From assembly GCF_032884065.1 (NCBI RefSeq), contig NC_088866.1, positions 51,530,068 to 51,594,067 of the forward strand: a DNA stretch of 64,000 nt, in the 5' to 3' direction. Source of the stretch: Artemia franciscana. Taxonomy: Eukaryota > Arthropoda > Branchiopoda > Anostraca > Artemiidae. Under the pieces are notes generated by a model. That model had not been told where the DNA came from. It was given only the letters and a program-made list of their open reading frames with translations, and did not search any database. A program made the translations under genes and the position numbers. The number at the start of each line of letters is the position of its first letter. Within the stretch, counting starts at the first letter, position 1. Positions 8,977-11,900 of the stretch are shown one piece after another.

Positions 8977-11900
8977 GTTGGTACTTTTATACTTTACTTA
9001 GGATTTTGAGTATTAAGATAAACGTAACTCACAAAGAAATTTACGTATTATGATGATTACATTTAATTTGGATATAATATTTGAACAAATAATAATTATG
9101 GCCTTATTTAAAATAATAAAGATTATTAACAAATTTGTTATTGAATAATCTTTAATAATTAAATTTGAAAAAGTATATGTTGAAATGGATATTGCACGTG
9201 TTCTGATTTGTAGCTGTTTGGAGATCATTTAGGAAATATATACGGAGTGTTCGAATCAGGGTACTAGACCCGAGGTCCCATCAGTCTCCTCTTATCCAGG
9301 GAATTACCTTTGGCTATCAATCCAAGGATGTCGTGCATTGACAGAGGGTAGGGTTTATGATGAATGAGAAAGCTGTCAAGTTTTGTTTAGGCTACGAAGG
9401 TGTCAATAATAGAATGCTACTTGCTCATTTTATGACTAAAAAGTGCACCAGTCATTGTAGTGTGTGTCCCCGTAGAACCAATTGATGGATATCATAGTGA
9501 CCCCGATAAATTTTACGTTCTACCAGAGTAATAAATAGACAGTATTCTGGTCTATTGGTAGAATGGTCTATTGGTAGCTCCCTGTTAGGAATGTGGTATT
9601 TTTACTTGGTGATTTTAACACCCTGGTCGGTAGAAACAGAGATAGATAGTTTTCTAGTCTAGATAAAGTCTAGTTTTCAGTCATAGTAGTGTGTGTCCCT
9701 GTAGAATCGATTGATGGATATCATAGTGACCCCGATAAATTTTGCGTTCTGCCAGGGGAATAAATAGACAGTATTCTGGTCTATTGGTAGCTCCCTGTTA
9801 GGAATGTGGTATTTTTACTTGGTGATTTTAACACCCTGGTCGGTAGTAACAGAGATAGATAGTTTTCTAGTCTAGATAAAGTCTAGTTTTCAGTCATAGT
9901 AGTGTGTGTCCCTGTAGAACCGATTGATGGATATCATAGTGACCCCGATAAATTTTGCGTTCTGCCAGGGGAATAAATAGACAGTATTCTGGTCTATTGG
10001 TAGCTCCCTGTTAGGAATGTGGTATTTTTACTTGGTGATTTTAACACCCTGGTCGGTAGAAACAGAGATAGATAGTTTTCTAGTCTAGATAAAGTCTAGT
10101 TTTCAGTCATAGTAGTGTGTGTCCCTGTAGAACCGATTGATGGATATCATAGCGACTCCGATAAATTTTGCGTTCTGCCAGGGGAATAAATAGAACGGAT
10201 TCTGGTCTATTGGTAGAATGGTCTATTGGTAGCTCCCTGGTAGAAATGTGGTATTTTTACTTGGTGATTTTAACACCCTGGTCGGTAGAAACAGAGATAG
10301 ATAGTTTTCTAGTCTAGATAAAGTCTAGTTTTCAGTCATAGTAGTGTGTGTCCCTGTAGAACCGATTGATGGATATCATAGCGACTCCGATAAATTTTGC
10401 GTTCTGCCAGGGGAATAAATAGAACGGATTCTGGTATATTGGTAGAATGGTAGGATCGATCTGGTCTATGGTAGGATTCCGGTCTATTGGTAGCTCCCTG
10501 GTAGAAATGTGGTATTTTTACTTGGTGATTTTAACACCCTGGTCGGTAGAAACAGAGATAGATAGTTTCTAGTCTAGGTAAAGTCTAGTTTTCAGTCATA
10601 GTAGTGTGTGTCCCTGTAGAACCGATTGATGGATATCATAGTGACCCAGATAAATTTTACGTTCTACCAGAGTAATAAATAGACAGTATTCTGGTCTATT
10701 GGTAGAATGGTCTATTGGTAGCTCCCTGTTAGGAATGTGGTATTTTTACTTGGTGATTTTAACACCCTGGTCGGTAGTAACAGAGATAGATAGTTTTCTA
10801 GTCTAGATAAAGTCTAGTTTTCAGTCATAGTAGTGTGTGTCCCTGTAGAATCGATTGATGGATATCATAGTGACTCAGATAAATTTTGCGTTCTGCCAGG
10901 GGAATAAATAGAACGGATTCTGGTCTATTGGTAGCTCCCTGTTAGGAATATGGTATTTTTACTTGGTGATTTTAACACCCTGGTCGGTAGAAACAGAGAT
11001 AGATAGTTTCTAGTCTAGGTAAAGTCTAGTTTTCAGTCATAGTAGTGTGTATCCCTGTAGAACCGATTGATGGATATCATAGTGACCCAGATAAATTTTA
11101 CGTTCTACCAGAGTAATAAATAGACAGTATTCTCTGGTAGAAATGTCGTACTTTTATTTGGTGATTTCAGCACCCAGGTCGGTAGAAACAGAGATAGATA
11201 GTTTTCTAGTCTAGGTAAAGTCTAGTTTTTAGTCATAGTAGTGTGTGTCCCTGTAGAACCGATTGATGGATATCATAGTGACCCCGATAAATTTTACGTT
11301 CTACCAGAGTAATAAATAGACAGTATTCTCTGGTAGAAATGTCGTACTTTTATTTGGTGATTTTGGCACCCAGGTCGGTAGAAACAGGGATAGATTGTTT
11401 TCAAGTCTAGATAAATTTGATGTAGAAAATTGAAACAGTAGTGGTTATAGACTGCTACAGTTTTGTAGTTATAATAATTTAGATATAAACAATATAGTAT
11501 TTTGTTATAAAATGACCCACAGTATTCACATAATGGTAAGACAGATTGGTTACGTTATTGTAAATCGAACACTAGCATGATCGATACAAGATACTTGAGT
11601 ATATAGGAGTGCCGTTACTGACGTTAAAAGAAAAGATCACCGTCTAGTAGTATCCAGGATTAATGTAAAGCTGAAATTTAGGAAGGATAAATACTTCCCA
11701 GGAATCTGTGACGTTATCAGACTCCAGGTTGAAGATTTGAGAGAAAATTTCCAGGAATAGCTGAATATCAACGTGAAGAGTTTAAAATTTGACCATTTTG
11801 AAAATTGATTGAATAGTTTTGGGAAAATAGTCTGTGAAGCCACTGATGATCTCTTAGTTGTAATGTAATGTTTATTATTTAGCTTTTAATTATTAGTTTA

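Follow-up and report, generated by a model that had tools for sequence, protein, structure and literature searches.

The window analyzed here is a 64,000-nucleotide stretch of the Artemia franciscana genome (scaffold C4, 51530068-51594067; other coordinates are those of the window unless stated), and a single decayed fragment of an RTE-type LINE, at about 9303-12003 on the forward strand, contains a tandem array of nine units at about 9440-11415. The array is recovered both by TRF and by a repeat search, and there are no N bases within 9000-12200. Each unit comprises both the VPVEP and the GDF sides of the RTE endonuclease, and along the array the anchors for these two sides, nine of each, follow one another in strict alternation. 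The initial annotation had placed this feature at 9245-11870; the array and its location are borne out, with the limits corrected to those given above. A sister locus on scaffold C20 (L009, C20:18490500-18500499) shares this LINE and its unit junction but has only two units.

The parent element was aligned to an uninterrupted 984-aa RTE ORF elsewhere in the same genome (L019), in which an endonuclease domain (Exo_endo_phos, residues 14-229) precedes a reverse transcriptase (RVT_1, residues 544-789) in one ORF; L020 also has an uninterrupted RTE ORF of 984 codons. We take both L019 and the window LINE to belong to the RTE clade. By tblastn the single-copy left flank (9303-9440) corresponds to residues 60-108 (match at 9303-9446), the unit to approximately residues 107-172, and the right flank (11416-12003), which has several stops, to residues 173-363. 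Taken alone, the left flank matches the L019 protein at E=9e-16 (residues 60-104) and the right flank at E=8e-49 (residues 173-363), and none of 50 sequences made by mononucleotide shuffling of the two joined flanks matched at E 1e-3. Both flanks thus match one intact protein, which supports the earlier proposal that neighbouring parts of the same LINE copy lie on either side of the array. This alignment delimits the remnant as a 5'-truncated copy retaining only about residues 60-363, with the reverse transcriptase part missing. DNA homology to other RTE copies begins at 9324 in the left flank, and the blocks alignable to them on the right are 11217-11857 and 11924-12007, separated by 66 bases (11858-11923) that do not align; the corresponding stretch is 32-34 bases long in other copies. 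Pfam searches with three short pieces of the broken window copy returned no family, and the first 333 residues of the RTE ORF matched nothing among PDB sequences at E 0.01.

Units 1 to 9 lie at 9440-9664, 9665-9877, 9878-10090, 10091-10319, 10320-10579, 10580-10808, 10809-11020, 11021-11216 and 11217-11415, all on the forward strand, with the end of unit 9, which continues into the right flank, put at 11415. In this one assembly their lengths range from 196 to 260 bp (229, 213, 213, 229, 260, 229, 212, 196 and about 199 bp in order), the first eight values also being the spacings of the unit starts. The outermost two are edge units, and the left edge of unit 1 is a short deletion (CACCAGTCATTG) also found in the first C20 unit. 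Inserts of 17-65 bases (GGTCTATTGGTAGCTCC or longer versions, the longest in unit 5) are present in units 1-7; they are not RTE sequence and are missing from units 8 and 9, from the second C20 unit and from eight aligned RTE copies. After AGACAG, the three units that lack the insert are one base longer than the family copies; where an insert is present it comes on top of this base, and in some units the total is a multiple of three. Pairwise identities over ungapped columns of the nine units are 86.2-99.1%, reaching 99.1% between units 2 and 3 and between units 4 and 5. The repeat search also shows two pairs of blocks that span unit borders (9449-9748 with 10593-10892, and 10474-10692 with 10915-11133, each at 98%), and these fit unequal exchange. 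From the identities and the blocks in common, these are head-to-tail units that exchange sequence.

RTE copies are dispersed over many scaffolds (40 scored of 542 and of 3482 candidates), and all 17 of the other copies compared (L010-L020 and L037-L042), picked by similarity to the query rather than at random and including two that match in part (L013 and L018), have one unit only. These one-unit relatives support the original proposal that the endonuclease segment was amplified in place. The window itself contains a second RTE copy (6524-6896, reverse strand) in which a single unit runs without a break from the left flank into the right. A forward-strand RTE piece at 7092-7260 is homologous to 11587 onward (DNA at 7092-7158, protein to 7253, and the L039 mapping of its C20 counterpart), and these oppositely oriented pieces are perhaps one inserted copy that has been rearranged. 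Twin priming leaves an inverted 5' part before the 3' part of an element; the second copy has an inverted 5' part ahead of its 3' part, a layout that twin priming could have left.

The initial annotation described the array as a coding segment of a transposon turning into a satellite. We searched the 1.27-Gb assembly, a scope that satellite DNA left unassembled would escape, for the unit junction TCTAGRTAAAGTCTAGTTTT with up to two mismatches. There are 29 matches, of which nine are perfect, none has one mismatch and 20 have two; eight of the perfect junctions are in the window array and the ninth is on C20. The two-mismatch matches were rejected as chance, since a reversed-pattern control gave 37 matches (19 + 18). 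Long or numerous arrays of the unit are thus absent from the assembly, where the junction is confined to two loci, one with nine units and one with two, and the label satellite overstates what is a local amplification. The same search bears on whether a ready-made RTE-derived satellite was inserted into this LINE copy. The non-RTE inserts within units 1-7 could be read in that way, but RTE sequence continues where the ends of the array meet the flanks, and the absence of the junction from any third locus of the assembly led us to reject such a capture as extremely improbable. Among viral contigs, 16 stretches fit a pattern and none was confirmed.

Local arrays are not rare here, since TRF (period of at least 50, score of at least 150, low-complexity rows removed) reports five with periods of at least 100 (in L015, L019, L020, L025 and L026) in 170 kb of neighbourhoods, these being the 17 loci L010-L026 selected for an RTE copy or for the duplicate. 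The window has three arrays of this class: one with a 184-bp unit, the RTE-unit array, and one with a 526-bp unit at 61808-63884 (3.9 repeats, 96% matches). The 184-bp array (about 80% matches) lies just past the apparent 3' end of another LINE. The 18000-30000 region has many AT runs, A- and T-rich tracts and approximately 27-bp repeats with TGTGTCCCGGTCGTCATTTAT, parts of which recur on C20.

The match between C4 and C20 extends from at least 10 kb to the left of the window through position 23292, with the left side rearranged. Three collinear blocks exceed 3 kb, with identities of 98.3% (10,826 columns), 97.0% (10,218) and 97.8% (3,994); for shorter blocks, found beside the arrays or toward the left, identity is 94-98%. 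The 14000-16000 segment has one other full-length copy, which is on C20 at 98%. A segment of about 1.05 kb (12081-13134) is present on C4 and missing at the same place on C20. Because 32500-35500 lacks a partner near the sister locus in the candidates scored and collinearity ends at 23292, we favour a segmental duplication over two alleles of one locus placed twice. Among 40 scored of 4362 candidates there is no partner for 32500-35500 near C20:18.5 Mb, and the sole part of it that matches elsewhere, C20 included, is a dispersed repeat of about 0.35-0.48 kb. A misplaced haplotype is a less likely but plausible reading, given that the match continues past the 10 kb examined on the left and that C20 is covered only to 18520499.

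Tandem repeats in the duplicated segments do not all differ in the same way. In the best TRF rows the 184-bp array is of nearly equal length at the two loci, 1145 bp on C4 (4698-5842) and 1130 bp on C20 (L009 554-1683), with an additional TRF row on C20 at L009 343-1683. A nested 66/79-bp array has seven anchors on C4 (7643-8143) and two on C20 (L009 3503-3653). Both high-identity arrays are thus shorter on C20, whereas the 184-bp array, with its more diverged units, has about the same length at both loci, a pattern expected if near-identical units collapse during assembly. The unit number rests on one assembly, in which an artefact could have raised the count on C4 or lowered it on C20 through collapse. 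Against such an artefact, the units carry distinct variants, neither array contains N, and at least two units are present at two loci. Reads of the PacBio Sequel type span 2 kb. The paper on the published A. franciscana genome reports PacBio Sequel, 10x and Hi-C data (PMC11492255). On balance we regard an assembly origin for the difference as improbable.

The order of events was examined in 191 columns that have a base in all 11 units (nine on C4 and two on C20), with eight of 18 RTE copies aligned as the family reference. At 22 of these columns every one of the 11 units carries the same base, which is missing from the eight family copies, and one of the 22 is a CAA to TAA change that places a stop codon in every unit. 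With this stop common to all, the LINE copy was probably dead before amplification, unless the stop was spread by later conversion; the proposal that a coding segment was amplified is sound as to origin in an RTE ORF, although the copy was probably already broken at the time. The same stop argues against the array having been kept for a function, as a protein or a chromatin element, as do the lengths of units 1-8 (196, 212, 213, 229 and 260 bp), which break a single frame. Judged from sequence, no function is indicated, and selective retention would seem very improbable.

The two C20 units differ from each other at 30 of the 191 columns (nine of them at the left edge), far more than the 2-6% between the duplicated segments, and two units therefore predate the segmental duplication. 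The nine C4 units vary at 37 columns, 27 of which show only the two C20 states, including eight that merely separate the left edge of unit 1; at the remaining ten the C4 base is found in neither C20 unit. The base at column 236 is C in units 8 and 9 but T in both C20 units and all eight family copies; that at column 226 is G in units 1, 2, 3, 6 and 7 but A in both C20 units and all eight family copies. Because these derived states occur in C4 edge units as well as others and the ancestral bases are retained on C20, the plainest reading is that copying inside the C4 array followed the split, although conversion on C20 could mimic this. It is also conceivable, if rather less likely than growth on C4, that the ancestral array was long and lost units on C20 until two were left. 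States spread over several C4 units occur together in the first C20 unit, and C4-only states at ten of 37 variable columns are also expected from a long array shrinking on C20. Columns 226 and 236 oppose such shrinkage, but conversion could have erased the derived bases on C20.

We consider it very likely, taking these comparisons together, that a segment of the endonuclease region of a decayed RTE copy was duplicated in tandem before the C4/C20 duplication, and that unequal exchange or conversion followed. A 5'-truncated RTE-type LINE copy would have decayed in place, after which about 200 bp of its endonuclease region would have been duplicated in tandem. At the join (...GATAAA/GTCTAG...) AAA is common to both breakpoints, and the alignment of the left edge is uncertain by about one base; slippage or microhomology repair may have made the first duplication, for which a three-base match is weak evidence. 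At least two units would have been in place before the region was duplicated between C4 and C20. After the split, unit numbers would have diverged to nine and two by unequal exchange together with conversion, and the copying within the C4 array would belong to this later period.

Satellites derived from segments of transposable elements, LINE ORF2 included, are already known, and the array is a tidy local example. A 2022 review (PMC9659126) lists satellites related to LINE ORF2 in chicken (HinfI, CR1), Phodopus (PROsat, LINE-1) and seal (Pvc20, LINE-1); the likeness lies in a tandemly repeated unit akin to LINE coding sequence, although those are named satellites, whereas the Artemia array has nine and two units at two loci and lies inside its parent copy. 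In Lathyrus sativus, LTR-retrotransposons are reported to carry short arrays from which satellites arise (Vondrak et al. 2019, PMC7004042), and here too a short array within a retrotransposon is a possible seed, but the array-bearing Lathyrus elements are dispersed through the genome, whereas the Artemia array is in a single dead LINE copy and the segmental duplicate of it. The transposon-graveyard model, in which decayed remnants are tandemly amplified and the duplication grows by unequal exchange (a 2025 review, PMC12628747), is similar in both respects; it differs in that its units are composites of several elements in heterochromatin where the Artemia array derives from one, and in that this review names LINE untranslated regions as sources where the Artemia source is an ORF. 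Among the literature titles listed, a scope that subscription papers mostly fall outside, neither this array nor an Artemia RTE satellite is reported.

A caution that follows for annotation is that tandem repeats of transposon coding sequence within the element they came from do not necessarily amount to a satellite. It is possible, though we think it doubtful, that C4 and C20 constitute a natural experiment on satellite birth, in which one seed array with two units or more, already in place when the segment was duplicated, gave nine units at one locus and two at the other; if so, the parallel difference in the 66/79-bp array (seven and two) would suggest that expansion is driven by the region and not by the unit sequence. 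What the comparison adds is the presence of one-, two- and nine-unit states of one LINE segment in a single genome. Because one-unit relatives, a two-unit sister and a nine-unit locus coexist, the order of events can be read, and it would run from decay of the element through the first duplication and the segmental duplication to later copying within the array.
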